From positions 1 to 39,934 of the forward strand of contig JAHOYU010000106.1 of the NCBI GenBank assembly GCA_019038625.1: a stretch of 39,934 bases of DNA, written 5' to 3'. This stretch comes from Candidatus Latescibacterota bacterium. Lineage in GTDB: Bacteria; Krumholzibacteriota; Krumholzibacteriia; Krumholzibacteriales; Krumholzibacteriaceae. How positions within the stretch are numbered: the stretch's first letter is position 1; each line of letters starts with the position of its first letter. The position numbers and the translations under genes are program-made. Below the pieces are notes generated by a model. The model was not told where the DNA came from, made no database searches, and worked only from the letters and a program-made list of their open reading frames with translations. Below, piece by piece: positions 2,374 to 39,293 of the stretch.

Positions 2374-2587
2374 CAGGAAACTATTCCCTGATTTAGAGAT
2401 ATGGCCAGAAGTGTGGGGCTATTTGTACGACAACCCAATAACGTGGCGCAGAGAGCAATATACACCATCAGGCAGGCTTACAAATTGGGTAAGCGGTGAG
2501 TCTTTAATCGAATATTTTAATGACGGACACCCCGTTACCAAATTTGGTTACTTTTCAACCAAGCCGGACGAAATGGCAAATGGATGA
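2360..2587 (+). CDS. Hypothetical protein (75 aa)
   Basis: 75 aa from ATG 2360, overlapping the previous gene by 14 bases; an in-frame GTG at 2330 is an alternative start but would overlap more. The protein is aromatic-rich (WPEVWGYLYDNPITWRREQY) with no known motif. The end overlaps the next start by 8 bases. Function unknown. Confidence 0.5.
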   Translation: MRITDRKLFPDLEIWPEVWGYLYDNPITWRREQYTPSGRLTNWVSGESLIEYFNDGHPVTKFGYFSTKPDEMANG

Positions 2588-2750
2588 CAAACCCCACGAA
2601 TGCATTGCAAAAAAACAGGATAACGGGGAGTTCCGATGTTTTATCTGTTGGGATTTATTTATCCGTGCAAGCGACATTGAGCGAGTAGAGCAGTTACCAG
2701 TTAAGCCACATTTAGCAGGGGTCAGGAATGAGAAAGCTAACACCAACTGA
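2580..2750 (+). CDS. Hypothetical small protein with a CxxC pair (56 aa)
   Basis: 56 aa from ATG 2580, chosen because it sits at the end of the preceding gene (8-base overlap); an in-frame start at 2520 would overlap by 68 bases. It has one Cys-Phe-Ile-Cys knuckle and a lone upstream HEC, so a small zinc-binding site is possible. No family recognised. It ends 23 bases inside the next gene. Confidence 0.45.
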   Translation: MDDKPHECIAKKQDNGEFRCFICWDLFIRASDIERVEQLPVKPHLAGVRNEKANTN

Positions 2751-2958
2751 AACACTGTATTTGATTCTGGGCAAGACAGGTATTCAGGATTTGAACGGCG
2801 AATTAACCCACGCCGAACTGTTAAACAATCACGCTTTCGTGGTAACTCGCGACACCCTGCATTTCTCAGGTACGGAATTTCCACAGGCTGAACAACTGGC
2901 GGCAAAGTATGCGGGAACACCACGGGCAAGGCTCAGACGGTGCGGGTTTTTCGGGTGA
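2728..2958 (+). CDS. Hypothetical protein (76 aa)
   Basis: 76 aa from ATG 2728, preceded by a CAGGGGTCAGG stretch that can act as ribosome binding site. It starts inside the previous ORF and its stop overlaps a GTG start at 2955. It is mixed polar with a basic end (RARLRRCGFFG). No family recognised. Confidence 0.5.
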   Translation: MRKLTPTETLYLILGKTGIQDLNGELTHAELLNNHAFVVTRDTLHFSGTEFPQAEQLAAKYAGTPRARLRRCGFFG

Positions 2959-3059
2959 GCTATCAAACGGCCAACACAATAGCAATTATCGCTGGATGTA
3001 TCGACCTGCTGATTGTTGGCTGGCAGGCTAGGGGCAAATGGGACAAAGATCATGAGTGA
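2955..3059 (+). CDS. Small single-span membrane peptide (34 aa)
   Basis: A 34-codon ORF from GTG 2955 to TGA 3059. It overlaps the previous stop (GTGA) and contains the ATG of the next gene at 3052, 8 bases before its own stop. Residues about 7-23 (NTIAIIAGCIDLLIVGW) form one hydrophobic helix and the rest is polar and charged. The overlaps on both sides make it a likely real gene; function unknown. Confidence 0.5.
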   Translation: MSYQTANTIAIIAGCIDLLIVGWQARGKWDKDHE

Positions 3060-3558
3060 GCGAGTAGCAAGAATGATGGCAAGGATTACAGCCGGTTCCG
3101 AAATGAAAGAACCCGGACGCGGCAGTATTCTTAACGTGGTAAACAGCGTCATGGCTGCAGCCGGACTGGGTAAGGCTGGTCGTATCGGCACGTTCATTTT
3201 GCTGGCTAACTATTGTGACAGCGCAGATTCAAGATTATGGGCTGAACAATGGCTTTTAAAGTGGTCGTGGTCTGAGTGGTTAAAAACAGGCGACAAAAGC
3301 GCAAAAGTAACCACCGGCGAAATGGAGCGGCTTGTATCTGTAGTCATGGGCCAGCATATTTGCCCGGAAGCCGGAAGACGCACAAGTAAAAAAATTGAGG
3401 CTTCAATAATCGGCATAGGCGCACACACATTGAAGAACAAATACGGTGGAATGCATGGCCGAATGATACGAGAAATTCAGTATCAGGAAAGTGTAGCAAT
3501 TTCAGCCATAGAGCGCGGATTTCGGGAAAGACTTGTAGTAGTGCCGAAAAACAGCTAA
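3052..3558 (+). CDS. Candidate Q-like late antiterminator (168 aa), by position
   Basis: 168 aa from ATG 3052; the N-terminus MSERVARMMARI is basic. Central part has repeated Trp (LWAEQWLLKWSWSEWL) and the C-terminal half is basic and helical (RRTSKKIEASIIGIGAHTL, then HGRMIREIQ), as in a nucleic-acid-binding helical protein. I do not recognise the sequence with certainty. Its place is where lambda-like phages put gene Q: last gene of the nin block, directly before a Rho-independent terminator (3584-3608) and the lysis genes. Q proteins let RNA polymerase read through terminators into the late genes. Role is therefore inferred from position; a different regulator or unknown protein remains possible. 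Confidence 0.4.
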   Translation: MSERVARMMARITAGSEMKEPGRGSILNVVNSVMAAAGLGKAGRIGTFILLANYCDSADSRLWAEQWLLKWSWSEWLKTGDKSAKVTTGEMERLVSVVMGQHICPEAGRRTSKKIEASIIGIGAHTLKNKYGGMHGRMIREIQYQESVAISAIERGFRERLVVVPKNS

Positions 3559-11729: not shown

Positions 11730-12209
11730 ATGGGAAATTTAGACGGGTTGCTCAACAGGATGGTGGCAATGCAGGGTGATGTTTCCGATGAATCGAAGGA
11801 AATATCCGGGCATATACGCAGTCTTGAATCATTCCTGCAAAAAAAGACCTCCACCGAGGGGCTGGCGCAGATGATGCACACGCTTGCCGCTGACAATCAG
11901 CGTTTATCGGCGAGAATTGATGCGTTATCGACAGTGACCGATGATATTACGAAATCCGTCAATGCCCTGCCGACCCAATTCCCGGTTGCCGAGAAGGTTG
12001 ACCTGTCCGGGCTGGACAAAACCATAAAAACAGTCGGTGTGGCGGTAAAGAATATCCCGACAACAAAATTTCCCGACATGCGCGCCGATTTCTCAAGAAT
12101 CGAGAAAAAAGTGACCGATTTACAGAAGGAATTAAGCAAACGGGTGCATGTTTTCGACATCGAGCGTGAAAATGATCTGGTCAAGAGAATCGTGGTGAGG
12201 GCTAAATAA
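11730..12209 (+). CDS. Coiled-coil protein after portal (159 aa)
   Basis: 159 aa from ATG 11730 behind AGGAAACAGC, 8 bases after the portal stop. Heptad-like stretches can be read at about 15-65 (ISGHIRSLESFLQKK) and again at about 118-145 (FSRIEKKVTDLQKELSKRV), joined by a Pro/Thr-rich middle. No known family. It may be a scaffold-like or fibre-stalk protein. Its stop overlaps the next ATG by one base (TAATG). Confidence 0.6.
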   Translation: MGNLDGLLNRMVAMQGDVSDESKEISGHIRSLESFLQKKTSTEGLAQMMHTLAADNQRLSARIDALSTVTDDITKSVNALPTQFPVAEKVDLSGLDKTIKTVGVAVKNIPTTKFPDMRADFSRIEKKVTDLQKELSKRVHVFDIERENDLVKRIVVRAK

Positions 12210-13069
12210 TGGCTGCAAGAGAAGTCATTACCCTGAATGAGACAACCCCGCAACTGGAAGCACCGCAGGCCGGTGACAGCTACGAAATGCCGCGCGATGT
12301 CAACATCACCGGCAATCTGACGGTTACGGGTTCTTTTCCCGCAACGGAGGGAAGTGCAATTCTTTCCACCGGCGAGGCGGGTGGAACCAAGTACCTGAGA
12401 GAGGATGGTGATAACTCCTGTTCCTGGCAGGCTATCGCCGGTGGCGGTTTAACGGTTCTATTCAAATCAGCCAATTACACCGCATCTGCCGGTGAGTTTA
12501 TTGTCTGCGACTCCAGTGGTGGTGCGTTTACAGTTACATTGCCGGTTGGTCCGTCTGCTACGGATCAGGTGTTTGTTGTTGATGGCGTTGGTTCATGCGG
12601 CACCAACACGGTAACAGTTGCCAGAAACGGTGAAACCATATTAGGTGATGCCGAGGATTTTGAACTGGACCAGGATTTCGGGCAGGCTAATTTTGCTTAT
12701 GGCGGGGCAGATTGGCAACATGCTTTATCTGGCACTCCAGATATTGTCAATGCCAATGATTTTATCTACGGATACCGTGGCGTTATAGACTTCACCGGCA
12801 CTTCTGAATCTGCGATACGCAATCATGAGGGTCAATTAATCACTATGACTAATGGCTCTGCAAATACCTACACAATCCCGGCAGAGGCTAGTGTCAATTA
12901 TGACATCGGCACCAAAATAGATGTTATGCAAAAAGGCACTGGACAGACAACCATCGCACTGACTACCGATTCCTTGCTCGGCAACGTAAAAATAGACGCA
13001 CAATACGATGTTGTAACTGTTGTGAAAACTGCGTCTGCTGAGTGGGTGGTACTGGGTGGGGTTGTGTAA
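12209..13069 (+). CDS. Fibre-like virion protein (286 aa)
   Basis: 286 aa from ATG 12209. After a short polar start comes the segment 'DVNITGNLTVTGSF' (about 30-43), a repeat style common in phage fibre stalks, then 'GGTKYLREDGDNSCSWQAI', also seen in fibres where it ends a collagen-like or stalk module. The rest is Gly/Thr/Ser/Asn rich with alternating hydrophobics typical of beta-structure ('FTVTLPVGPSATDQVFVVD'). Likely a fibre or a surface protein working with the glycine-rich protein downstream, with which it overlaps by one base. Confidence 0.65.
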   Translation: MAAREVITLNETTPQLEAPQAGDSYEMPRDVNITGNLTVTGSFPATEGSAILSTGEAGGTKYLREDGDNSCSWQAIAGGGLTVLFKSANYTASAGEFIVCDSSGGAFTVTLPVGPSATDQVFVVDGVGSCGTNTVTVARNGETILGDAEDFELDQDFGQANFAYGGADWQHALSGTPDIVNANDFIYGYRGVIDFTGTSESAIRNHEGQLITMTNGSANTYTIPAEASVNYDIGTKIDVMQKGTGQTTIALTTDSLLGNVKIDAQYDVVTVVKTASAEWVVLGGVV

Positions 13070-13914
13070 TGGTAAAACTCAGTGATTATTTCACGGCACG
13101 AGCCGGATTCTATAGTCCTGTATTGATAACCGGCGACGGGGGATGGGAAAAGAAAACAATAAGCACCGTGGACTATTACATTGTTACCTTCACCGGAGAT
13201 GGCACTGTTTCGTTTTCAGAGGATACCGATGTTGATTATCTTGTGGTTGCCGGGGGTGCGGGTGCGGGTGGTAAAGGTGGTGGTGGTGGTGGTGCAGGAC
13301 AGGTTAAAACAGGCAGTGCGTTATCTCTTACTGGGGCGGCGGGACACGCAATAACCATTGGTGCCGGTGGTGCGGGTGGCGTTGATGAGAATGTTGGCAA
13401 CAATGGCTCTGATAGCTCTATTAACGCATCCGTTGTGTCAACAGGCGGCGGTTATGGGGGCAGATGGCTGAATATAGATGGCGGGGCTGGTGGCAATGGT
13501 GGTGGTGGTGGTAAAGATGGCGGTCTTGGTGGTGTAGGCACGGATTATGACGGCGGCGAATCTCTTGGTTCCAGCGCATATGCGGGTGGTGGCGGTGGTG
13601 GGGCCGGTGAACAGGGTGGTGATGGCTTGGCATCAGAGGTTGCTGGTGATGGCGGTGATGGTGTTTCATCTTCCATAACAGGAAGCGCGACTTACTATGG
13701 CGGTGGTGGTGGTGGTGGCACAAACAGTGACGCATCGGCAAATAAGCATGGTCTTGGCGGTCTTGGCGGCGGTGGAGATGCCGGGGCAAACGACCTGGCA
13801 GCGCAAAGCGGCACGGATGGCCTGGGTGCCGGTGGTGGTGCTGGTGGGTTTAGTGGCAACGCAACTGGTGGTGATGGCGGCACCGGCCTGGTTATATTGC
13901 GGTGGGCCGTATGA
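13069..13914 (+). CDS. Glycine-rich fibre tip/adhesin-like protein (281 aa)
   Basis: 281 aa from ATG 13069 (TAATG overlap with the previous stop). Residues 1-50 form an attachment part with 'YYIVTFTGDGTVSFSEDTDV' like, then 'DYLVVAGGAGAGG' opens a domain of many poly-Gly runs (GGGGGG, GGGGGGG) separated by short variable loops. This is the plan of glycine-rich phage adhesins, where stacked polyglycine helices display variable loops that bind receptors. It closes with 'GGTGLVILRW', the usual end of this domain. Probably host-recognition; placing it between portal and scaffold is unusual. Confidence 0.75.
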   Translation: MVKLSDYFTARAGFYSPVLITGDGGWEKKTISTVDYYIVTFTGDGTVSFSEDTDVDYLVVAGGAGAGGKGGGGGGAGQVKTGSALSLTGAAGHAITIGAGGAGGVDENVGNNGSDSSINASVVSTGGGYGGRWLNIDGGAGGNGGGGGKDGGLGGVGTDYDGGESLGSSAYAGGGGGGAGEQGGDGLASEVAGDGGDGVSSSITGSATYYGGGGGGGTNSDASANKHGLGGLGGGGDAGANDLAAQSGTDGLGAGGGAGGFSGNATGGDGGTGLVILRWAV

Positions 13915-15190: not shown

Positions 15191-16285
15191 ATGGCTGAAC
15201 AATCAATCAGCACAGCCCTACAGACAATTCAATTCCGCAAAGATTTCTTCCGTGAGTATGTACGCAAAAACCGTTTCGCACCTTATATGGGTCGCGGCGT
15301 GGATAATGCGATTTGCCAGAAGTTAGGCAGGGGTCCAACCCTTCGCCATCCACTGGTAACTCGCCTTAAGGGTGCAGGCGTAAGCGGAAGCACGATGTTG
15401 CGCGGCAATGGAGAGTCCATAGGAAACTACTCGTGGGATACCAATCCCACCTACTACCGTCACGCGGTTGAGTTCAACAAAGAGGATTTGGAAAAAACCA
15501 ATCTCGCTTTGATGAAAGAGTCCCGTCCACTGCTTTTAGAGTGGGCAATGGCTGAAAACCGTGATCGGATCATACAGGCGATGGGTGCTGTTTATAACGG
15601 CACGACCTACGCCAATATGGAAGACGCATCAGAGGCAGTGAAGGACGCATGGTTAGTTACCAACGCATCCCGAACCATGTTCGGCGCATACGCGGCCGGT
15701 GGTTCAGCGGGTGGTACAGACCATTCTGCCGATCTCGCTCAACTTGATGCAACCGATGATGATCTTACCTATACACTTTTGAGTAAGATGCGCGCTTTGG
15801 CAGAAGACGCAGATCCGCATATTCATCCATACCAGACGGATGAGGAAGGCGAAGTCTATGTCTTGTTTGCTGGCTCAACTCCTTTCCGTGATTTGAAAGC
15901 GAGTCTGACCACCATCAACCAGAACGCGGATGTTCGTGGAATGAAGATCACCTCTAACGGCAATGTTCTTGCCCGTGATGGCGATCTGTTCTATGACGGC
16001 GTTATTGTTCGTAAGGTGCCGGAAATTGACACCATCTTCTCTGATACAGGCAAGCCACTTGCAACCGCAGGCGCGTCAAGCGTTCGTGCTGCAGTGACAT
16101 TCCTGTGCGGCAGACAGGCGGTTGTTCAGGGTTTTGGTCAGGCTCCAGATATTATCGTGGATCGTGACTATGACTTTAAATTCCGTCCGGCGGTAGCGGT
16201 CGAGTGCAAGGAAGACGTTAAAAAGACATTCTTTAACGACTACCAGCACGGAATCATTACCGGTTACTTTAGCGGGGTGAAATGA
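15191..16285 (+). CDS. Major capsid protein (DUF4043/N4-gp56-like)
   Basis: 364 aa from ATG 15191 with AAGGAG 7 bases upstream, one of the best ribosome binding sites here, as expected for the most abundant virion protein. Features such as 'FFREYVRKNRFAPYMGRG', 'LRGNGESIGNYSWDTNPTYY' and 'RHAVEFNKEDLEKTNLALMK' fit the DUF4043/N4-gp56-type coat proteins (HK97 fold) found in many podoviruses. Scaffold is directly upstream and a decoration-like protein follows with start/stop overlap. Strong by position; family from pattern. Confidence 0.85.
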   Translation: MAEQSISTALQTIQFRKDFFREYVRKNRFAPYMGRGVDNAICQKLGRGPTLRHPLVTRLKGAGVSGSTMLRGNGESIGNYSWDTNPTYYRHAVEFNKEDLEKTNLALMKESRPLLLEWAMAENRDRIIQAMGAVYNGTTYANMEDASEAVKDAWLVTNASRTMFGAYAAGGSAGGTDHSADLAQLDATDDDLTYTLLSKMRALAEDADPHIHPYQTDEEGEVYVLFAGSTPFRDLKASLTTINQNADVRGMKITSNGNVLARDGDLFYDGVIVRKVPEIDTIFSDTGKPLATAGASSVRAAVTFLCGRQAVVQGFGQAPDIIVDRDYDFKFRPAVAVECKEDVKKTFFNDYQHGIITGYFSGVK

Positions 16286-16767
16286 TGACTACTTATACAG
16301 CAACAGAAAGACGGTCATCCCTGCTGCAAGCAACGTCTCACGGTGGAGCGTATGGGGTGAAAGCCCTTGTCGCTACCATTGAGGTCGCAGCAGCTACTAC
16401 CGTTGGCCTGACCATTGATTTTGGTCGTGTCCCATCCAACGCCCGTATCCTTGCAAGCTCCCAGTTGTATTGGGATGACCTTGCAACCAGTGGTGCGCCC
16501 ACGTTGGATTTGGGTATTGGTGCGGTTAACGGCAATCTTGCCAACGCAGACGACCCCGATGCACTGAGTGCCGGTCATGATACGACCAGCGCGGGTAGTG
16601 CATCAGCATTATCTGAAATTGCCAATGCCGGTTTGCAGGCATGGGATTTTGTAGCCAGTGAAACCACCGATCCGGGTGGCTCATTAATGGTCTACGGAAC
16701 CCTGGCAGATGCAGGGGTTAATCAGGTAGGAACATGCAGTCTGGAACTTTATTACGTTGTTGACTGA
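16282..16767 (+). CDS. Head decoration-like protein (161 aa)
   Basis: 161 aa from ATG 16282 (a second ATG follows at 16285), overlapping the coat stop. It is rich in Ala, Gly, Ser, Thr and Asp, nearly free of Lys, and has alternating strands ('AATTVGLTIDFGRVP', 'GTCSLELYYVVD' at the end). A small beta-rich protein immediately after the coat gene suggests a capsid decoration or cement protein. No family recognised. Confidence 0.6.
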   Translation: MMTTYTATERRSSLLQATSHGGAYGVKALVATIEVAAATTVGLTIDFGRVPSNARILASSQLYWDDLATSGAPTLDLGIGAVNGNLANADDPDALSAGHDTTSAGSASALSEIANAGLQAWDFVASETTDPGGSLMVYGTLADAGVNQVGTCSLELYYVVD

Positions 16768-17318
16768 TGTTCTCTGAACTGGCTTTGGGTGCTTGTTCAG
16801 ACCTTGAGTTCGGTTCTGTTCTTGATATTGGAAGCGGAAGTGGGTCACATGCGGCTCACTTCCGCGACCTTTCAAAGACCGTTACCACGGTCAACCTTGA
16901 ACCACCGGCTGATATGGTTGGTGATTATCTTGAACTTGAATTGCCGCAGCATGACCTTGTTTGGGCGAGTCATGTGCTGGAACACCAGCCCAATCCGAAT
17001 TTGTTTCTAAGGAAGTGCTTTGCCGATACCGGCAGGTATTTCTGCGTTACCGTACCACCGTTAAAACATGAGATTGTCGGTGGTCACCTGACTCTCTGGA
17101 ATGCAGGATTGCTGCTTTACAACATGGTGATTGCCGGGTGGGATTGCAGCGAAGCAAAGGTTATGACCTACGGTTACAACATCAGCGTGTTGGTTGAGAA
17201 GAAAAAGGCTGACTTGCCGCCGTTAAAGATGGATTCCGGCGACATTGAGCGGTTATCCGGGTTTTTCCCGTTTCCAGTATGGCAGGGTTTTGATGGACGA
17301 ACGACCGAGAGAACTTGA
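16767..17318 (+). CDS. Class I SAM-dependent methyltransferase (183 aa)
   Basis: 183 aa from ATG 16767 (overlap with previous stop). The Rossmann glycine motif is clear: VLDIGSGSGSHAAHF from residue 18, with the acidic motif II end near 'TTVNLEPPAD' and 'HDLVWASHVLEHQPNPNLFL' as motif IV/V, the pattern of small-molecule or sugar methyltransferases of the Methyltransf_11/23 type. No DNA-methylase motif (DPPY, NPPW) is present, so a nucleic acid base target is unlikely. It opens a three-gene cassette (with 17293-17859 and 17856-18605) set inside the head operon, which suggests modification of virion protein or a sugar upon it. Substrate unknown. Confidence 0.82.
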   Translation: MFSELALGACSDLEFGSVLDIGSGSGSHAAHFRDLSKTVTTVNLEPPADMVGDYLELELPQHDLVWASHVLEHQPNPNLFLRKCFADTGRYFCVTVPPLKHEIVGGHLTLWNAGLLLYNMVIAGWDCSEAKVMTYGYNISVLVEKKKADLPPLKMDSGDIERLSGFFPFPVWQGFDGRTTERT

Positions 17319-17859
17319 TGATGTCCCACATGTTGCCGACCTTAAGCCGGTTGCGATAGAACATGCCGGGGCGGGAACATGGGCAGAGTTCGGTGTTTAT
17401 CGTGGCAACAGCGCACGGCACTGGTTAAACCACATGCCCGATAATACCCACTTACACCTGTTTGATTCATTTGAAGGCTTGCCCGAATACTGGGATATAG
17501 TCGGTGATGGCAATCCGCGTGAAATCAACATGTTCAAGGTGCAGGAACATGAAATACCCGTGTTCCACGGCTCACGCTCAACCATGCACCGGGGTCTGTT
17601 TGCCGACACCCTGCCAAAAGCTGATATGGGTGTGCTGAGTTTTGTCAATATCGACTGTGACCTGTATTCCTCAACCGTCACGGTACTTGAGCATATTGAG
17701 GTAGAACCGGGAACCATCATGATTTTTGATGAATACCACGGTTATCCGAATTACAGGGCCCATGAGAGAAAGGCGTATTTTGAATGGTCGGAGCGTACCG
17801 GTTACAAGCTTGATTGGATTGCAACGGCGCACTGGGGCGCATTGGGAGTAGTGGTATGA
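17293..17859 (+). CDS. TylF/MycF-type O-methyltransferase (188 aa)
   Basis: 188 aa from ATG 17293, overlapping the upstream methyltransferase by 26 bases; an earlier start would overlap more. The TylF (macrocin O-methyltransferase)/Methyltransf_24 motifs are all there: EFGVYRGNSARHW at 32-44 (SAM binding), LFDSFEGLPEYW at 56-67, VNIDCDLYSS at 118-127 and IFDEYHGYPNY at 144-154 with metal-binding Asp/Glu. Known members methylate sugar hydroxyls in antibiotics and glycans. TylF members are about 250 aa, so this is a short form. Overlaps the next gene by 4 bases, so co-expressed. Confidence 0.85.
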   Translation: MDERPRELDDVPHVADLKPVAIEHAGAGTWAEFGVYRGNSARHWLNHMPDNTHLHLFDSFEGLPEYWDIVGDGNPREINMFKVQEHEIPVFHGSRSTMHRGLFADTLPKADMGVLSFVNIDCDLYSSTVTVLEHIEVEPGTIMIFDEYHGYPNYRAHERKAYFEWSERTGYKLDWIATAHWGALGVVV

Positions 17860-18605
17860 AGAAACTGGCAATCGTGTGTGGCGCACCGTCCTCTGAAATG
17901 CTTGCGCCGTTTGATGATCCCGAATACGAGGTGTGGGTACTGGGCAATCGCTCACAGAACTACCCGCGCTACGACCTGATATTTGAAATTCACGATGAAA
18001 TAGACGAGGAACATGACGAGCGTTATCCGCAATGGTTGGTGGATAAGAACACACCGCTTATTGTGGGCAACAACTTCCCGATCAAAGCCGACCACGTTAC
18101 GACATTCCCCTATGATGAGTCCGAGCGGTTGTTCGGCTCACTGTACCTGACATCAAGCCCGGCAATGATGGTCTGTCTGGCTATGTTACGCGGTTATCCG
18201 TACATGGAACTGTACGGTATTGACCTGTCCATAGATGACTTTGAATACTTCTGGCAGCGTCCCTGCATGGAAGCATGGATAGGCTTTGCGCGTGGCAAGG
18301 GCCATGAGGTTGTCATACACGAACTTTCACCTGTCCTGAAAGCCGAGTACGTTGAGGGCATGGCGTGTGGTGGCAGACCGGACTTTTCCAAGCCGCCGTT
18401 TACCGAAGATGGTTTCCTTGGATTGGCAAAGCGTCATCAGGAAAAGATCGCACAGGCCAACCAGCAGATAGCGCAATTGCAGATTGTGATTCAAAGCAAC
18501 GACGGCGCAAGGCAGGCATACACACAAATGGCGCGGGTTGCCCGTTCGGTTGAGGCCGGAAACGACATTCCAACACTGGATATAACGGTACGACAAAAGG
18601 ATTGA
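17856..18605 (+). CDS. Rossmann-type protein resembling MptE/DUF115 family (249 aa)
   Basis: 249 aa from ATG 17856 (ATGA overlap). Residues 1-150 look like a nucleotide-binding domain: 'KKLAIVCGAPSSE' start, 'EVWVLGNRSQNYPRYDLIFE', 'IHDEIDEEH', 'YLTSSPAMMVCLAMLRGYPY' and 'LYGIDLS', then 'QRPCMEAWIGFARGKGHEV'. This order (strand-Gly loop, 'D.IFE.HD', 'TSS.A.M...A...GY..I.LYGIDL') recalls DUF115/MptE-like proteins, some linked to sugar or nucleotide transfer. Residues 185-230 are a Gln-rich coiled coil (KRHQEKIAQANQQIAQLQIV), which may bind it to a partner. Third gene of the inserted cassette. Activity unproven. Confidence 0.55.
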   Translation: MKKLAIVCGAPSSEMLAPFDDPEYEVWVLGNRSQNYPRYDLIFEIHDEIDEEHDERYPQWLVDKNTPLIVGNNFPIKADHVTTFPYDESERLFGSLYLTSSPAMMVCLAMLRGYPYMELYGIDLSIDDFEYFWQRPCMEAWIGFARGKGHEVVIHELSPVLKAEYVEGMACGGRPDFSKPPFTEDGFLGLAKRHQEKIAQANQQIAQLQIVIQSNDGARQAYTQMARVARSVEAGNDIPTLDITVRQKD

Positions 18606-18607
18606 TT

Positions 18608-18811
18608 ATGAAGAAGGCAGCAAAGAAACGCGCAAGGAAGGTTTACAAGGGACGTGGTTTTGTCTTTACCGGCGATAAGGCCGGTGGTTGCGATCCAAAA
18701 ACCTGCAAGGTATTCAATATCAACTTCAATCTCAACGGCAAGGTCATGTATGTGCCTGATGAGGTTGCGATTAAATTGGCCACACACTCGCACTTCACCG
18801 AGAAGAAATAA
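18608..18811 (+). CDS. Small basic protein (67 aa)
   Basis: 67 aa from ATG 18608, 2 bases after the previous stop; a TTG at 18602 is a poorer start. The first 20 residues are very basic (MKKAAKKRARKVYKGRGF), then one C-x4-C pair (CDPKTC). It ends by a one-base overlap (TAATG) with the next small basic gene. Function unknown, possibly DNA- or RNA-binding or a small head protein. Confidence 0.5.
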   Translation: MKKAAKKRARKVYKGRGFVFTGDKAGGCDPKTCKVFNINFNLNGKVMYVPDEVAIKLATHSHFTEKK

Positions 18812-19041
18812 TGGGTATTGAAAGGAACATCAAAGACGTACTCAGGGAAGGCAGGCAGAAACCAAAACGTGTTGAACTGGTTGGTCCGGGCGGTGTAAAC
18901 AAACAGAACAAGCGGCGTAAAGCAGCGATGGAGAAAGGCCCGAAAGCGGTTACCCGTGATGTACAAAAGCGCATGGGCGAGTACAGGCGTGGCAACGTCA
19001 TCGACAAAGTTAAACGCTACAAGAACCCGTTGAATAAATAA
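18811..19041 (+). CDS. Small very basic protein (76 aa)
   Basis: 76 aa from ATG 18811, about a third Lys/Arg, without motif. TAATG overlaps on both sides (18811 and 19041) join it to its neighbours. Possibly a small DNA-binding or virion-internal protein. No family recognised. Confidence 0.5.
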   Translation: MGIERNIKDVLREGRQKPKRVELVGPGGVNKQNKRRKAAMEKGPKAVTRDVQKRMGEYRRGNVIDKVKRYKNPLNK

Positions 19042-19388
19042 TGGCTACTGCAACGCAGACACGCGAAACCGCCGCTGAAATCCTTGGCATACTGGGCGAG
19101 GGCGAGACTTTACCGTCCTATGAAACCGCTGATCTTGATCAGGCATACACGGAGGTTTTCAGCGAGTTACAGGCGCTGAATCTGACCACATGGGCAGAGA
19201 GTGCCGATGTGCCGGACCAGTATGCGCGCTCGGTTGCAATGCTGGTGGCAGAGGCCCGTGCGGTCAAGTACCAGATACCGGATGCGCGTTATCAGCGTAT
19301 TAAGCTGGAAAAGATCGAGGCAATGCGCATGATCCGCGAATTGCAGGCGAGGGCAAAAATGGGTCAGACGGAAATAGAGAACTTCTAA
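19041..19388 (+). CDS. Head completion/tail accessory protein, P22 gp4-like (115 aa)
   Basis: 115 aa from ATG 19041. All-helical pattern beginning 'AAEILGILGEGETLPSYETA' with 'LDQAYTEVFSELQALN' and 'ALMLVAEARAVKYQIP' -type helices, the shape of P22 gp4-like head completion proteins that bind under the portal and start tail assembly. The next gene begins right after its stop and is gp10-like, the same order as in P22 (coat, gp4, gp10). Assigned by fold pattern, size and gene order. Confidence 0.65.
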   Translation: MATATQTRETAAEILGILGEGETLPSYETADLDQAYTEVFSELQALNLTTWAESADVPDQYARSVAMLVAEARAVKYQIPDARYQRIKLEKIEAMRMIRELQARAKMGQTEIENF

Positions 19389-22300
19389 ATGCCAAGAGTT
19401 GAAATCCCCCTGATTGGCCCATCCTATACCAACAGGGAAAAACCATTATCCGCACAGGTTGCAAAGAATCTTTGGCCTGAAATCAACCCGGAAGCGCGCA
19501 ATCAGGTTGCCCTGCACAATGTTGCAGGCACAAAGACGTTCGCAACGCTGGAAGGCGTTGATCGTGGTATGCACGATTTCAACAACCTTTTGTATGTGAT
19601 TAACGGACAGACCTTGTATTCGGTTGATGCCGAGGGTGTGAATTACGCATTGGGAACGATTGCCGGTTCCGGGCGATGCGTGATGGCGAACGACTCATAC
19701 CAGTTGATCATAACCACCGGCGCAACACCGTATAAATACACGGTAGCCGGTGGAGTTGAGGCTATAACCGACCCTGACCTGGTGAACCCGACCACGGTTG
19801 CCTATTTGAACAACCAGTTCATATTCGACCAGAATAACGGCGTATGGGGTGAGTTTGTCACCAGTTCGGTGGATCCCGCATTCTCCGTTGATGCGCTGGA
19901 TTTCGCACAGGCTGAATCACATCCCGATGACATAACTGCCATTGTTGCTTTCAGGCAGTTGGTTTATTTCTTTGGCTCCAAATCGGTTGAACCGTGGCAG
20001 AACACCGGCAAAGGCAATCCACCGTTTGCACGGGTGAACAGTGGTGTCCAGCCGTATGGACTAGCAGGACTGCATGGCATCACCAAGACCGATGAGTTCA
20101 TGTATTTTCTGGATACAAAACGTATCCCAAGACGATCAAACGGGCTTAATTTTCTGAATATCGGCAATCCTGCCCTTGGGGTGGAGTTTGCCAAGTATTC
20201 AAAGATTGATGATGTTATCGCTTTTGATTTCGTGCAGGATAACCAGCAATTCGTAGCGTTTACATTCCCGGCCGCCAACCGGACATGGGTGTTCCATGAG
20301 CCATCCGGTAGCTGGTTCCAGCTAACCAACGGTATCGGCAATGACCGCCACCGTGCAAGTTCGATGATCCATATGTACGGCCTGAATTACTGTGCAGACC
20401 ACACCAATGGTTTGTTGTATGAATACTCGCTGGATATATATTCAGATAACGGCGAACCGATCATCAAGCAACGTGATACCGCCGTTATCCACGGTGGTTT
20501 ATTCGGCGTTCCCGGCAAAAAACTGTTCTTCGATGAAGTGGAATTTATCATTGTTGCAGGGCAGACCGAGGTTGCGGGAACAGGGTTAGGACCACAGCCA
20601 CCGGATACAATACCAGACCCACCACTAGATTTAGACCATCTGCTATATTATCAGGACTTTGAAACCCTGAAAGATTCTCAAAGCGTCAACAGTGGCTATA
20701 ACATGCTCGAAGGCCTGTATGGTTACGGGCTGAACGATGGCTCATCCCTGGTTGCATCGGCTAATGTCGGCTTTGCTACCAATCCAAGTGCTGCCGGTAT
20801 GCACGGCGGTAATGCTGCTGGTTGTAATGGCACGACAGATAACGTTTTCAGCCTTGAAAATGAAGCCGATGATGCAATCTGGACAACGGATGAACACACA
20901 CAGGTATGGTGGTTTTATGTCACACAAATAGGCACGCTGGTTGGCCTTTCAAACTCAGGTGACATGTCCGGCAATGGTTTTAATCCATCCGGTATGCAGA
21001 ACTTTATTAACGCCGATGGCACAATCAGTACATTTATAGGTGATTACGCTTCACCATCTACCCGCGAGGAATTTACAACCACAGCAACCGTAACCCTTGA
21101 TGCGTGGAACTATCTGACCATATCGCACGAACCCTCCACCAAGACACTTGCCATCTCGCTAACCCCTGATACATCCGGCACACCAGTTACACCAGAAGAA
21201 TTTACTTATACCGTAACCATGTCGCCATTTGCAAACGGTTTATTGCTATGCGGAGGGTACAACAACGGCGTTAATGCGCCTATGCTGTCCGGCTCTCGCG
21301 TGCAGCACTGGTCGTTGTGGGATTATGTTCTTCCTGAGACGCAGGCAAGTATCATGTTTAACGGTGGCGCAGGACTTTCTACGCCAGCATTTTTCGCACA
21401 AAACGATAGGTGGCCCGCGCAAGCATCAGTCGGTGCAGCAACGACCACAAGACCGCAAGTTGAACTGTTCATTCCTGGCGACTGGTCAACCTATACGGCA
21501 ACATCAGCAGTTCCAAGTGCTGTTGCTGTTACTGATGGCGATACGCTGCAAGGCTACCGAAGCCAGCACGAAAATGGGGCCATGACTGGCGGAACAATCG
21601 GAACCCCAACGCTCAAAACCAACATACAGAACGGCCTGTCAGTGGTGAGGGTTGCATCTCCTTCGGTGCAGGCAATGTCGGCTGCATGGAGCGGGATGAG
21701 TACATTGTCAATGTCTGTATTTTTTGCAGGCTCGTGCAATAACGCAAATGCAACCGGCGTATTTGTGGCTTTGGGTGGTTTTCATGGCAGGGTATATGCC
21801 AATGATACCGGTGTTATCGGATACCTGAACAATGATGGTGATCAGGTTGAGGCTGATGCTGGTGATGCCGTGGGCAGTGATACGTTTTTCATTGGTGCAA
21901 TCACCTATGATGGTGTTGCTGGCGAGATCAAGGTATTCATGAATGGTGCAAAGTCTAACGAAAAACTGACAGCATCTACCGGGTTAGCCGGTGCCGATGG
22001 CGGTCAGTTGTTTGCGCGTGATAATGGGCCTAATGAGCCATTTACGGGCGATATGGGGCATTTGATTGCTCATCGTGAAGCCCTGTCTGAAGAAGACGTT
22101 ATTTCAGTCATGGATTGGATGAATAACAAGTGGCACGTTTACGAGGGCTGGACGGATGATGACGAGTATGCCCCACAAGACCCGATCGCACCGCCTGCCC
22201 CAGACCCACGAACCGAAATAATGTCACCGTTCTGGGAGAATACCGGCAACTGGATAGACTTGAGCAAGCTCACGCATACCACGTTTGAGGGCATGTTCGG

Positions 22301-22979
22301 TGTCGCCATTGAACTGGCCGATTTCAACAAGGTGGTCGCTGTTGACATGGCGGCTTTGACCACCACGCAGGATGCGGGTAACAGGATACAGTTACAGGAC
22401 TACGTAGGCTACGACAACGGCGCTTTATACATTACAGATGGTGACGGCAACGTACTGGATGAAATGATCTACAGCGGCGTACCAAGCGGCGATTCCGTGC
22501 TGGTTCCAACAGGTTCAAACTATGTTGTAATCACATCGGATACCGGCAATGCACAGGTCAGGAAGTGGGACACCACGCAGATCAGTACGATTGGTTCGGT
22601 GGCATGGGAATGGTTCTTCGGTGTGCCGTTCGAGCTTGGGCGGCATTATTCAAATACCGACAAGGTAATCCCCGCAGAAGGCGTTTCGCTACGCTTTACT
22701 GTGCCGGTCACATCCCTGTCATACGAGCTTCTGTTTGTGTCGGTTGGCAATACCACGGTAAGCAGCACCCGTACCGGCTCTGTTAACCAGACGGTAGGTG
22801 ATTACACATCCGCACCGTCCCATACGTGGGGGCTTGGTGGCGGTATCAGTGCCGGGGTGAATTTATCCGGCAAGGACATCGCTTTGGTTCCGGGCGAGAC
22901 ATATTTCTTCAATATTCGCATTAACAACCCGATTGATAATAATTTGCTGACGCTCCAAGTGGTCAACAGGCAGGTATAA
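19389..22979 (+). CDS. gp10-like packaged-DNA stabilization/tail protein with LamG-type insertion (1196 aa, split gene 5' part)
   Basis: 1196 aa from ATG 19389. Residues 1-400 resemble P22 gp10 (tail hub that plugs the portal): 'GVDRGMHDFNNLLYVINGQTLYS', 'AGSGRCVMANDSYQL', 'SHPDDITAIVAFRQLVYFFGSKS' line up with 'GVSRGVEY..VYRVCGGKLY', 'GSGRVSMAHG', 'ESQPDGIIGIGTWRDFIVCFGSS'. P22 gp10 is ~470 aa. Near residue 400 (GLGPQPPDT) the family would continue into 'VMxxxSDDGGxTWS', but that piece is in the next ORF (22979-23203). In between lie two concanavalin/LamG-like regions (about 414-656 and 689-920) and an extra beta domain (945-1196), ending in a stop. So a carbohydrate-binding type segment of ~2.4 kb seems inserted in gp10. 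Confidence 0.8.
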   Translation: MPRVEIPLIGPSYTNREKPLSAQVAKNLWPEINPEARNQVALHNVAGTKTFATLEGVDRGMHDFNNLLYVINGQTLYSVDAEGVNYALGTIAGSGRCVMANDSYQLIITTGATPYKYTVAGGVEAITDPDLVNPTTVAYLNNQFIFDQNNGVWGEFVTSSVDPAFSVDALDFAQAESHPDDITAIVAFRQLVYFFGSKSVEPWQNTGKGNPPFARVNSGVQPYGLAGLHGITKTDEFMYFLDTKRIPRRSNGLNFLNIGNPALGVEFAKYSKIDDVIAFDFVQDNQQFVAFTFPAANRTWVFHEPSGSWFQLTNGIGNDRHRASSMIHMYGLNYCADHTNGLLYEYSLDIYSDNGEPIIKQRDTAVIHGGLFGVPGKKLFFDEVEFIIVAGQTEVAGTGLGPQPPDTIPDPPLDLDHLLYYQDFETLKDSQSVNSGYNMLEGLYGYGLNDGSSLVASANVGFATNPSAAGMHGGNAAGCNGTTDNVFSLENEADDAIWTTDEHTQVWWFYVTQIGTLVGLSNSGDMSGNGFNPSGMQNFINADGTISTFIGDYASPSTREEFTTTATVTLDAWNYLTISHEPSTKTLAISLTPDTSGTPVTPEEFTYTVTMSPFANGLLLCGGYNNGVNAPMLSGSRVQHWSLWDYVLPETQASIMFNGGAGLSTPAFFAQNDRWPAQASVGAATTTRPQVELFIPGDWSTYTATSAVPSAVAVTDGDTLQGYRSQHENGAMTGGTIGTPTLKTNIQNGLSVVRVASPSVQAMSAAWSGMSTLSMSVFFAGSCNNANATGVFVALGGFHGRVYANDTGVIGYLNNDGDQVEADAGDAVGSDTFFIGAITYDGVAGEIKVFMNGAKSNEKLTASTGLAGADGGQLFARDNGPNEPFTGDMGHLIAHREALSEEDVISVMDWMNNKWHVYEGWTDDDEYAPQDPIAPPAPDPRTEIMSPFWENTGNWIDLSKLTHTTFEGMFGVAIELADFNKVVAVDMAALTTTQDAGNRIQLQDYVGYDNGALYITDGDGNVLDEMIYSGVPSGDSVLVPTGSNYVVITSDTGNAQVRKWDTTQISTIGSVAWEWFFGVPFELGRHYSNTDKVIPAEGVSLRFTVPVTSLSYELLFVSVGNTTVSSTRTGSVNQTVGDYTSAPSHTWGLGGGISAGVNLSGKDIALVPGETYFFNIRINNPIDNNLLTLQVVNRQV
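20590..22979 (+). other. Inserted LamG/beta-domain segment splitting the gp10-like gene
   Basis: Segment of about 2.4 kb from the Pro/Asp-rich linker (GPQPPDTIPDPP) to the TAA at 22977. It encodes the LamG-like and beta domains of the gp10-like protein. Both ends meet conserved gp10 sequence (left 'FIIVAGQTEVAGTGLG', right 'VMISYSDDGGETWS'). A new ATG overlaps the stop (TAATG), so the 3' part can be made separately. No terminal repeats or transposase are seen, so this is domain acquisition, not a transposon. Confidence 0.6.
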
Positions 22980-36730: not shown

Positions 36731-36775
36731 ATGTCAACGATCATGAAACGCCCTGAGTGGCTGTCTGATGACTAA
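36731..36775 (+). CDS. Tiny leader ORF (14 aa) overlapping the methyltransferase start
   Basis: 14 codons from ATG 36731 (MSTIMKRPEWLSDD) behind CAGGGGTAG, ending at TAA 36775, 8 bases inside the methyltransferase gene, whose start at 36768 has no Shine-Dalgarno sequence. It probably serves to couple translation (reinitiation) onto the methyltransferase; its product may also be a small peptide. Confidence 0.35.
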   Translation: MSTIMKRPEWLSDD

Positions 36776-37760
36776 ATACAAGCAATTAGCAAGCGCCAAC
36801 ACAGCCCAGTTACCGCGTTCATATGAAGAAATGACAACCGCAATCGCCCTTTGTGAAAGTGTGGACGAGTGCAAGGACTGGGCAGACAAAGCGGCCGCGC
36901 TTGCAAGCTATCACCGGCAATCAAAAGACACGGTTTTAATGAATCGGTTTATGCGGATACAGGCGAGGGCCATTCGCAGGGCTGGTGAGGTGCTGGAAAC
37001 GATTGAGCCTCAAAGCGGTGGTGACAGAAAATCAAACGGTGGGCAACCGCCCCTTGATAATACGCGCACGGCAGCAGCCCGCGAAGCCGGAATGTCACCA
37101 CACCAACAAAAAACCGCCATGAAAATAGCGCGGATACCTAAAGAAGAATTTGAAGAGTTGGTGGAGTCATACGAACCACCAACAATAACCAGGCTTGCTG
37201 TCAGGGAGGCTGAAAAAAGAGAGCAGCCAGCGCCGGTTAAGCGCGAACTGCCCGCAGAAGAATATAACTTGATTTATGCAGATCCGCCTTGGCGCTATGA
37301 ACACTCCAAAACCGACAACAGAAAAATAGAAAACCACTATCCAACAATGGACCTGCTAGAAATATGCAATCTGCCCATTGGCGCGCTGGCGCACGAAGAT
37401 TGCGTTTTATTCATGTGGACAACCAGCCCAAAATTATTCGAGTCAATGGCTGTAATTGAGGCATGGGGATTCAGTTACAGAACGTGTGCTGTGTGGGACA
37501 AAGAAATCATAGGTATGGGCTACTACTTCCGGCAACAGCACGAAATTCTGTTGATTGCGACAAAGGGAAGTCCCGGCACACCAGATCCATCGATGCGGGT
37601 TTCATCAATTATCAAGTCTCGCAGGGAAAAGCACTCTAAAAAACCTGATCTGTTTTATGGGCTGATCGAAAGCATGTACCCGAACGCCAAAAAACTAGAA
37701 CTGTTTGCACGGAAAACGCAACCGGGATGGAGTGCATGGGGTAACGATGCACAACTTTAA
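36768..37760 (+). CDS. MT-A70 family DNA adenine methyltransferase with N-terminal helical domain (330 aa)
   Basis: 330 aa from ATG 36768. The C-terminal part (about 163-330) is the MT-A70 catalytic domain: 'YNLIYADPPWRYEH' with catalytic DPPW at 172-175, 'CVLFMWTTSPKLFESMAVIE', 'GFSYRTCAVWDKEIIGMGYYFRQQHEIL', 'KHSKKPDLFYGLIES' and 'KLELFARKTQPGWSAWGN'. MT-A70 proteins add a methyl group to adenine N6. The N-terminal ~150 residues are helical and include 'EAGMSPHQQKTAMKIARIPK', a ParB/HTH-like stretch that may bind DNA. Overlaps the next gene by 14 bases. Phage DNA methylation protects from host restriction or times replication; which one here is unknown. Confidence 0.9.
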   Translation: MTKYKQLASANTAQLPRSYEEMTTAIALCESVDECKDWADKAAALASYHRQSKDTVLMNRFMRIQARAIRRAGEVLETIEPQSGGDRKSNGGQPPLDNTRTAAAREAGMSPHQQKTAMKIARIPKEEFEELVESYEPPTITRLAVREAEKREQPAPVKRELPAEEYNLIYADPPWRYEHSKTDNRKIENHYPTMDLLEICNLPIGALAHEDCVLFMWTTSPKLFESMAVIEAWGFSYRTCAVWDKEIIGMGYYFRQQHEILLIATKGSPGTPDPSMRVSSIIKSRREKHSKKPDLFYGLIESMYPNAKKLELFARKTQPGWSAWGNDAQL

Positions 37761-38274
37761 TGACAGTTTAAAAAAATCACATGCTGCCAGCGACCATCCG
37801 ATGTGGTTGCACTGTTACAAGCAATTCTTTCCCAACATGTTGGCATGTGTTGATCATAGACAGGATGGCGAACACCAGCGGGCCGGTATCGACAGGTCGG
37901 TCATACTGGAAAACTCAAAACAAATACTGATTGACGAAAAGGTTAGGTATAAAGACTACGGCGATATTCTTCTTGAGTACACTTCCGTAGATACAACCGG
38001 CGCACCAGGGTGGGCCTGTAAGCCGCTCATGTGCGACTACATAGCATACGCAATCCTTCCAAGGGGCAAAGCCTACCTGTTACCTGTAATTCCACTACAG
38101 CGGGCATGGGCAAGTTTGGGTGCAAACTGGATAAAAAAATACGGGACAAGACAGGCGCAAAACAATGGCTACAAGACGCTAAATTGTCCTGTCCCGTTTG
38201 CCCCATTATTCAACGCCCTGCAAACCGCACAGATAGCAAACTTCGAGCCTATTAACCAAGAGCAGGCAGCCTAA
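37747..38274 (+). CDS. PD-(D/E)XK nuclease-like protein (175 aa)
   Basis: 175 aa from ATG 37747, overlapping the methyltransferase by 14 bases (an earlier in-frame start at 37705 would overlap more). I see a restriction-type nuclease core: 'AGIDRSVI' with Asp49, then 'KQILIDEKVRYKDYGDILLE' with D63-E64-K65 as the D-x-K motif, then 'GWACKPLMCDYIAYAI'. Strand-turn-strand with D and DxK separated by 14 residues fits PD-(D/E)XK folds. No closely known family. Next to a DNA methyltransferase this suggests a paired modification and cutting activity, but it may instead be a replication or recombination nuclease. TAATG overlap joins it to the O-like gene. Confidence 0.6.
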   Translation: MHNFNDSLKKSHAASDHPMWLHCYKQFFPNMLACVDHRQDGEHQRAGIDRSVILENSKQILIDEKVRYKDYGDILLEYTSVDTTGAPGWACKPLMCDYIAYAILPRGKAYLLPVIPLQRAWASLGANWIKKYGTRQAQNNGYKTLNCPVPFAPLFNALQTAQIANFEPINQEQAA

Positions 38275-39293
38275 TGGCTAGATCACGCAACATTAAACCC
38301 GGACTGTATAAAAATGAATATCTGGTAGAACTGCCATTTGAGACACGGCTCATGTTTGCAGGATTACCCTGTTTTGCAGACCGCGAAGGGCGACTGGAAG
38401 ACAGGCCCATGAAAATCAAAATGGAAATGTTTCCCGCCGACAATTTAAACGTGGACGAGATGTTAAGTGCGCTGGAATCGAAGGGCTTTATTCAGCGATA
38501 TGAATCTGACGGCATTAGATACATTCAAATACTCAATTTCATAAAACACCAAAACCCGCACCACAAAGAAATAGCATCCTGCATACCAGCACCAGACGGG
38601 CATAAAGATTCTGGCGCTGTACCAAGCGAAGTAACACCAGGACAGCGCCAGCGCATATTAGACAGAGATGGTCATGTTTGTCTTTCTTGTGGAAGCACGG
38701 AAGCCCTTGAAATTGATCATATTGTTCCGGTATCAAAAGGTGGCACGAGTGAAGACACAAACCTTCAAACACTGTGCGGAAACTGCAATGCCACAAAAGG
38801 CAATCGCCATACACGAAGCTATAACGAGCCGTCAACGAGCCGTCAACGAAATAAACAAAGCGGGCAACGCCCTACTTGTACAAGGTTAAAGGAATCAGTA
38901 ACAAGTAAAGAGGTTAAAGGAATCAAGAAAAAGGCTAGAACCAGTTTTTTGGACGAACTTGAATTACCTGATTTTGTGGATCCAAAAATATGGGCCGATT
39001 TTGTGCAAATGCGGAAGGAAATTAAAAAGAAACTCACACCAACCGCCGTGAAGCAAATCTTCAAAGACATGGCTGCATGGAAAGCCGAAGGGGACGATCC
39101 GAATCAATCCCTGCTGAACTCAATACGCGGAAGTTGGCAGGGCGTATTCCAGCAAAAGGAAAACAATCATGGAACTACCGGGCAAAAAAGAAATAGCACG
39201 GGCGCAACGCCTATATCAACACCAGCAAGCCGAGGCAAAGAAGCCGCAGCAAGATTGCAAGCTAACCGAGAGGCTTTGGCAGCGGATGCTTGA
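38274..39293 (+). CDS. Replication initiator-like protein (lambda O role) with internal HNH domain (339 aa)
   Basis: 339 aa from ATG 38274. The first ~105 residues are a winged-helix type replication domain typical of phage initiators: 'MARSRNIKPGLYKNEYLVEL', 'LMFAGLPCFADREGRLEDRP', 'GIRYIQILNFIKHQNPHHKE'. An HNH nuclease domain (about 122-180) is spliced in: CLSC at 136-139, EIDHIVP at 146-152, 'DTNLQTLCGNCNATKGN' with CxxC at 168-171. C-terminal 'FVDPKIWADFVQMRK...AVKQIFKDMAAWKAEG' and 'SLLNSIRGSWQGVF' are the usual end of this family. DNA repeats at 38824-38925 lie between HNH and C-domain. The gene overlaps the P-like gene by 125 bases. Confidence 0.8.
   Translation: MARSRNIKPGLYKNEYLVELPFETRLMFAGLPCFADREGRLEDRPMKIKMEMFPADNLNVDEMLSALESKGFIQRYESDGIRYIQILNFIKHQNPHHKEIASCIPAPDGHKDSGAVPSEVTPGQRQRILDRDGHVCLSCGSTEALEIDHIVPVSKGGTSEDTNLQTLCGNCNATKGNRHTRSYNEPSTSRQRNKQSGQRPTCTRLKESVTSKEVKGIKKKARTSFLDELELPDFVDPKIWADFVQMRKEIKKKLTPTAVKQIFKDMAAWKAEGDDPNQSLLNSIRGSWQGVFQQKENNHGTTGQKRNSTGATPISTPASRGKEAAARLQANREALAADA
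38824..38925 (+). repeat. Direct repeats inside the initiator gene, candidate replication origin
   Basis: ACGAGCCGTCA occurs twice in tandem (38824-38834, 38835-38845) plus four bases of a third copy. Further on, AGGTTAAAGGAATCA occurs exactly twice (38883-38897 and 38911-38925), 28 bases apart. Both periods (11 and 28) are not multiples of three, so the copies are read in different frames; the repeat is a DNA-level feature. Lambda's origin also sits within its O gene as iterons. Confidence 0.6.

Follow-up and report, generated by a model that had tools for sequence, protein, structure and literature searches.

A candidate virion-modification cassette of two methyltransferases and a CstII/MptE-like Rossmann protein in the head operon of a P22-like podophage

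What would two methyltransferases and a Rossmann-fold protein act on when their genes are embedded among the head genes of a phage? This question is raised by contig JAHOYU010000106.1 of a Candidatus Latescibacterota bacterium (39,934 nucleotides, analysed at full length and referred to here as the window). The whole contig was identified as a P22-like podophage and belongs to a 3.78 Mb MAG; its markers are TerL, the portal, the scaffold position, a PF13252 coat protein, Hc3, an ejection-type protein, Erf and Gam-like proteins. The original prediction placed three overlapping genes between the coat/decoration genes and a gp4-like gene. Open reading frames and gene junctions agreed with this arrangement (Table 1). 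The name GTL is used here for the 249-aa Rossmann protein and its relatives.

Table 1. Genes of the window from the coat protein to the head closure protein
Feature	Coordinates	Strand	Evidence and remarks
P22-type major coat protein	15191..16285	+	PF13252 1.5e-31; phrog_334 1.1e-45
Type-A decoration-like head protein (decoration A), proposed cassette substrate	16282..16767	+	phrog_8455 virion structural 1.7e-3 (weak)
MT11, class I SAM methyltransferase, 183 aa	16767..17318	+	ATG start; PF08241, PF13489
TylF-type O-methyltransferase, 188 aa	17293..17859	+	ATG start likeliest; PF05711 5e-13
GTL, CstII/MptE/Maf-like Rossmann protein with C-terminal coiled coil, proposed glycosyltransferase, 249 aa	17856..18605	+	ATG start; AlphaFold2 model, fold and profile matches
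Small basic ORF s1	18608..18811	+	tblastn matches in L004/L005 and L117; found in some relatives
Small ORF s2	18811..19041	+	tblastn match in L004
gp4-like neck protein	19041..19388	+	Position same in relatives
Head closure Hc3/stabilisation-like protein	19389..22979	+	phrog_578 6.1e-72

The cassette (16767-18605) consists of three contiguous, translationally overlapping genes on the + strand, located between decoration A and the gp4-like gene. The MT11 ATG overlaps the stop codon of decoration A (TGATG junction), and the GTL start overlaps the stop codon of TylF (ATGA junction). The G+C content of the cassette genes (0.495-0.516) equals that of the phage (0.500), and therefore there was no sign of recent foreign import. 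A scan for promoters and terminators found sites no commoner than in shuffled sequence; late expression of the cassette is inferred from gene order.

Several other features of the window were also recorded. The contig ends (1-361 and 39386-39740) are diverged copies with 86% identity over about 360 bp, which suggests a phage genome that is circular or has related termini and was put together from strain variants, or else a paralogous gene. A DNA methyltransferase (phrog_359, 7e-67) and a replication initiation protein, apparently with an HNH endonuclease domain, are encoded at 36768-37760 and 38274-39293. The region 12209-13914, between portal and scaffold, contains tail-fibre-like segments and a phrog_2295-like protein; this is an unusual site for fibre genes. 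The Hc3 gene encodes 1196 aa including a long C-terminal extension with a lectin-like Laminin_G_3 domain (767-904, 1.4e-5), and locus L005 carries two shorter ORFs where the window has this fused gene.

Assignment of the two methyltransferases, a SAM methyltransferase and a sugar-type TylF-like enzyme as predicted, was confirmed using curated Pfam cut-offs. MT11 scored above those of both PF08241 Methyltransf_11 (7.7e-7; 30.1 vs. 21.2) and PF13489 Methyltransf_23 (1.4e-6; 28.6 vs. 27). Across 22 sequences its motif I (DIGSGSG) and HVLEH motif are kept, with the SAM motif residues D20, G22 and G24 at 90% or higher. A search of MT11 against isolate phages gave no match. Its relatives elsewhere adjoin Capsule_synth, an epimerase-like protein and a sulfotransferase fusion; at L023:4359-5594 the sulfotransferase-like domain is fused to the MT11 relative itself. 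Another relative lies between terminase and portal on a P22-like contig (L015:2225-2776), where the region after the coat falls outside the view.

The TylF protein exceeded the PF05711 cut-off (49.3 bits vs. 23), and its phmmer matches in the PDB include the deoxysugar methyltransferases MycF and NovP. Its metal-site motifs D..DLY.ST and DEY (acidic) align to DDY in the best PDB matches, 5i10 and 4cdz. The protein thus belongs by sequence to the sugar-type O-methyltransferase family, with a sugar hydroxyl as the predicted acceptor. Compared with MycF, TylF and NovP, which it resembles in sequence and in these aligned motifs, the window protein is smaller and is encoded in a phage head operon rather than in an antibiotic biosynthesis cluster. 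The longest ORF begins at an alternative TTG start (17245), and relatives align from residue 21 onward. The nearest isolate-phage relatives are found in mycobacteriophages (37-39%).

In single-sequence searches, GTL had no match in Pfam, PHROGs, NCBIfam or the PDB, and among isolate phages one weakly similar protein was found, in a Microcystis phage, where it is annotated as a "type 11 methyltransferase". The AlphaFold2 model of the window protein (pLDDT 86) shows a Rossmann domain and a long C-terminal helix (184-233) forming a coiled coil, and that of a distant family member, L066, is confident (pLDDT 93). Foldseek matched the window model best to thiamine pyrophosphokinases including 3lm8 (2.5e-3, probability 1.0, TM about 0.4). 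For the family model, the top two PDB matches were the CstII sialyltransferase 1ro8 (3.8e-5) and the M. jannaschii HPPK/MptE 8sd5 (1.1e-4), both with probability 1.0, followed by the cell-division protein SteA; TM-scores of the fold matches were moderate (0.35-0.45). In the profile search of the PDB, nine of ten matches were GT42 sialyltransferases, all weak (E 0.03-1.1) and with alignments that stop short of the CstII catalytic histidine. The distant-family alignment A4 gave no GT42 match and no useful match in the PDB, and the GTL of L046 matched a PHROG named alpha-2,3-sialyltransferase weakly (0.01).

The Maf_flag10 domain of Maf flagellin O-glycosyltransferases (PF01973) resembles CstII (PMC11339370), and a relationship of thiamine pyrophosphokinase to both Maf1 and CstII has been described (PMC3426422). 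Because the proteins matched by GTL are related in the literature, a CstII/MptE/TPK Rossmann fold class is well supported by the models. The Rossmann fold and coiled-coil tail of the original prediction were thus reproduced, while its DUF115/MptE-like label fits less closely: the window protein has no PF01973 match, and distant relatives reach 18.6-21.3 bits against a cut-off of 34.6. GTL and Maf, which O-glycosylates a self-assembling surface protein in the cytosol, share the fold class, but the window GTL is much smaller. Moreover, the N-terminal domain of Maf has weak methyltransferase similarity (PMC11339370), whereas many phage GTL relatives carry a bona fide methyltransferase domain. CstII and its GT42 relatives provide the best structural match of the family model and most profile-search matches, although identity to GTL is about 16% and lipooligosaccharide is the substrate of CstII. 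The fold is also that of archaeal MptE (6-hydroxymethylpterin diphosphokinase) and of thiamine pyrophosphokinase, but GTL is linked to methyltransferase and capsid genes and its context holds no pterin or thiamine pathway. The fold would permit either a glycosyltransferase or a pyrophosphokinase, and the genomic context favours a glycosyltransferase.

This context was evaluated across the family. A scan seeded with ten members (alignment A2) returned 80 viral and 7 genome loci; with earlier loci added, the family comprised 99 domains, which form 43 clusters at 75% identity, are mostly metagenomic in source and are partly redundant (L012 and L084 come from the same contig, and L004 is nearly identical to L005). 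GTL is fused behind a SAM methyltransferase domain in 20 of the 99 and adjacent to a methyltransferase in a further 15. With purpose-built profiles, all 24 methyltransferase ORFs detected among the 921 ORFs of the GTL-query loci were fused to or adjoined GTL, a figure that is descriptive because one profile was trained on fused domains. When fusions were excluded, an adjacent methyltransferase was found in four loci, vs. 1.2 expected with GTL placed randomly in its own locus. An adjoining methyltransferase is missing from many SU10-like and some P22-like members, indicating that methylation is not essential to GTL function.

Conserved linkage of the whole trio in other phages or prophages, which the original prediction proposed to search for, was not recovered: among the loci found, MT11, TylF and GTL occur together in the window only. 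MT11 with GTL, TylF with GTL, another methyltransferase with GTL, and MT11 with TylF were each found elsewhere, and the conserved unit is GTL plus an exchangeable methyltransferase. Two loci show other arrangements: at L036:4794-7298 one methyltransferase gene is flanked by two GTL genes, possibly for two successive sugar transfers, and L026:4123-6123 contains a row of MT11, GTL and a third, unrelated methyltransferase.

Furthermore, head genes lie beside GTL in 88 of the 99 cases, as judged with profiles seeded from the GTL loci themselves, and these represent three unrelated head architectures. An SU10-type adaptor lies upstream of GTL in 37 (three of them confirmed by PF24175). In 32, GTL follows an HK97-type major head protein and a protein of ~145 aa, and in another 8 it is nearest to a connector (three confirmed by phrog_10). 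In 11, the window counted, it follows a P22-type coat and decoration A. The exceptions include the Microcystis phage, in which GTL precedes the terminase.

Among close relatives of the window, GTL is constant and the METHYLTRANSFERASE varies. Between decoration A and gp4, L030, L032, L033 and L108 carry no methyltransferase, L003 and L031 a Methyltransf_24-like protein, L004/L005 TylF, L006 and L007 MT11, and the window both MT11 and TylF. Decoration A and GTL occur together in nine related phages. L117 and L119, whose coat proteins share 75% and 65% identity with that of the window, have a different decoration protein, no GTL and no methyltransferase; a decoration-B scan returned its own locus only. 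This pattern (nine positive and two negative loci) is as expected if decoration A is the substrate, and equally so if neighbouring genes are exchanged together as a linked mosaic. In L030, decoration A genes are duplicated in tandem upstream of GTL (2486-3466).

We consider it somewhat probable that the cassette is a virion-modification module, in which GTL would attach a sugar to a head or decoration protein and the methyltransferases would cap that sugar. GTL would act as a cytosolic glycosyltransferase of CstII/Maf type, drawing on a nucleotide-activated sugar of the host, possibly an ulosonic acid such as Kdo in its CMP-activated form. Ser/Thr residues of a head protein would receive the sugar; the most likely acceptor is the decoration protein, whose gene lies immediately upstream and in which Ser and Thr make up 20% of the residues. 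The TylF-type enzyme would then O-methylate the sugar, and MT11 may add a second methyl group to it or methylate another position. Through the gene overlaps the enzymes would be made together with their substrate, and the particle would bear a small methylated glycan. Stability in the environment, masking and adhesion are candidate benefits to the phage.

The donor was further considered in the MAG holding the contig. CMP-Kdo synthetase KdsB is present (TIGR00466 over cut-off), and searches of the MAG for the nonulosonic acid synthase NeuB and for PF01973 found neither. NeuB is also absent from a Mesorhizobium genome carrying a fused GTL and present in Variovorax. A Clostridium Maf is able to use Kdo (PMC11339370). 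CMP-Kdo would be a speculative candidate for the donor, provided that the MAG is the host.

The closest precedent is found in the virion glycosylation cassettes of mycobacteriophages, where a homologous TylF-type enzyme by the capsid or portal genes is paired with putative glycosyltransferases. The gene order is capsid, TylF and two glycosyltransferases in Courthouse, and portal, TylF, three glycosyltransferases, protease and capsid in Dylan (cluster O). PMC11600133, citing Freeman et al. (2023), states that in cluster O phages proteins of the capsid and tail tube are modified by such enzymes, which also dampen the antibody response. The two cassette types share a TylF gene beside head genes, and the glycosyltransferase role of GTL is what the comparison presumes. 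The mycobacteriophage cassettes have two to three annotated glycosyltransferases, whereas the window, a P22-like podophage, has one CstII/MptE-like protein and an additional MT11. The original statement that no such system had been described is only partly right, since mycobacteriophages are known to carry methyltransferase and glycosyltransferase cassettes in their head operons, and these are reported to glycosylate virions. No report on MptE-like proteins in phage head operons was found in the open-access literature.

Other readings of the locus were weighed against the virion-modification module. The cassette may modify host cell-surface glycans late in infection, for receptor masking, lysis or release, with the head-operon site merely providing late expression. 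TylF and the capsule-type neighbours of MT11 relatives are typical of surface polysaccharide pathways, but in unrelated phages the linkage is to decoration or small head proteins and adaptors, not to lysis or early genes, and among close relatives the cassette tracks decoration type; we regard this reading as fairly unlikely. The original prediction had named virion and cell surface as possible targets, and the virion gains support from several sides: GTL is linked to head genes in unrelated phages, is often fused to a methyltransferase, accompanies a single decoration type and has a precedent in the mycobacteriophage cassettes. It is unlikely, too, that GTL is an MptE/TPK-like pyrophosphokinase or another nucleotide-binding enzyme acting on a small molecule whose product the methyltransferases modify. 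The Foldseek matches to MptE and thiamine pyrophosphokinases and the sub-threshold PF01973 scores of relatives speak for such an enzyme, whereas methyltransferase fusion and capsid-gene placement in three architectures would be unexpected of a metabolic enzyme, and a sialyltransferase heads the structural matches of the family.

Direct methylation of a head protein (at Lys, Asn or termini), with GTL as a non-enzymatic scaffold or nucleotide sensor, would explain why one slot holds interchangeable methyltransferases of different families, and the coiled-coil tail could bind the capsid. However, TylF belongs among sugar O-methyltransferases, and GTL is constant and found also without methyltransferases, which makes this rather improbable. 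Least plausible of all is a moron-type insertion hot spot downstream of the capsid genes, with cargo carried for unrelated reasons: methyltransferase content is variable and the exact trio is restricted to the window, but the same GTL family recurs at the same place in unrelated phages, often methyltransferase-fused, and the start and stop codons overlap.

On a broader scale, we tentatively propose, at somewhat short of even confidence, that widespread and essentially unannotated phage CstII/Maf-like protein glycosyltransferases, in head-gene clusters of at least three unrelated tailed-phage architectures and often fused or paired with interchangeable methyltransferases, coat virions with methylated sugars, possibly ulosonic acids. 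The literature covered documents glycosylated virions in only a few phages, for the most part actinobacteriophages. If the proposal is true, virion glycosylation would be common in uncultured phages of many environments, and Pfam, PHROGs and NCBIfam would have missed an enzyme family whose likely substrate is encoded next door. Because prophages with relatives of GTL reside in sequenced Mesorhizobium and Variovorax strains (L113, Mesorhizobium camelthorni; L114, Variovorax sp. WS11), this is directly testable. Moreover, the swapping of methyltransferases suggests that these phages diversify their surface chemistry.
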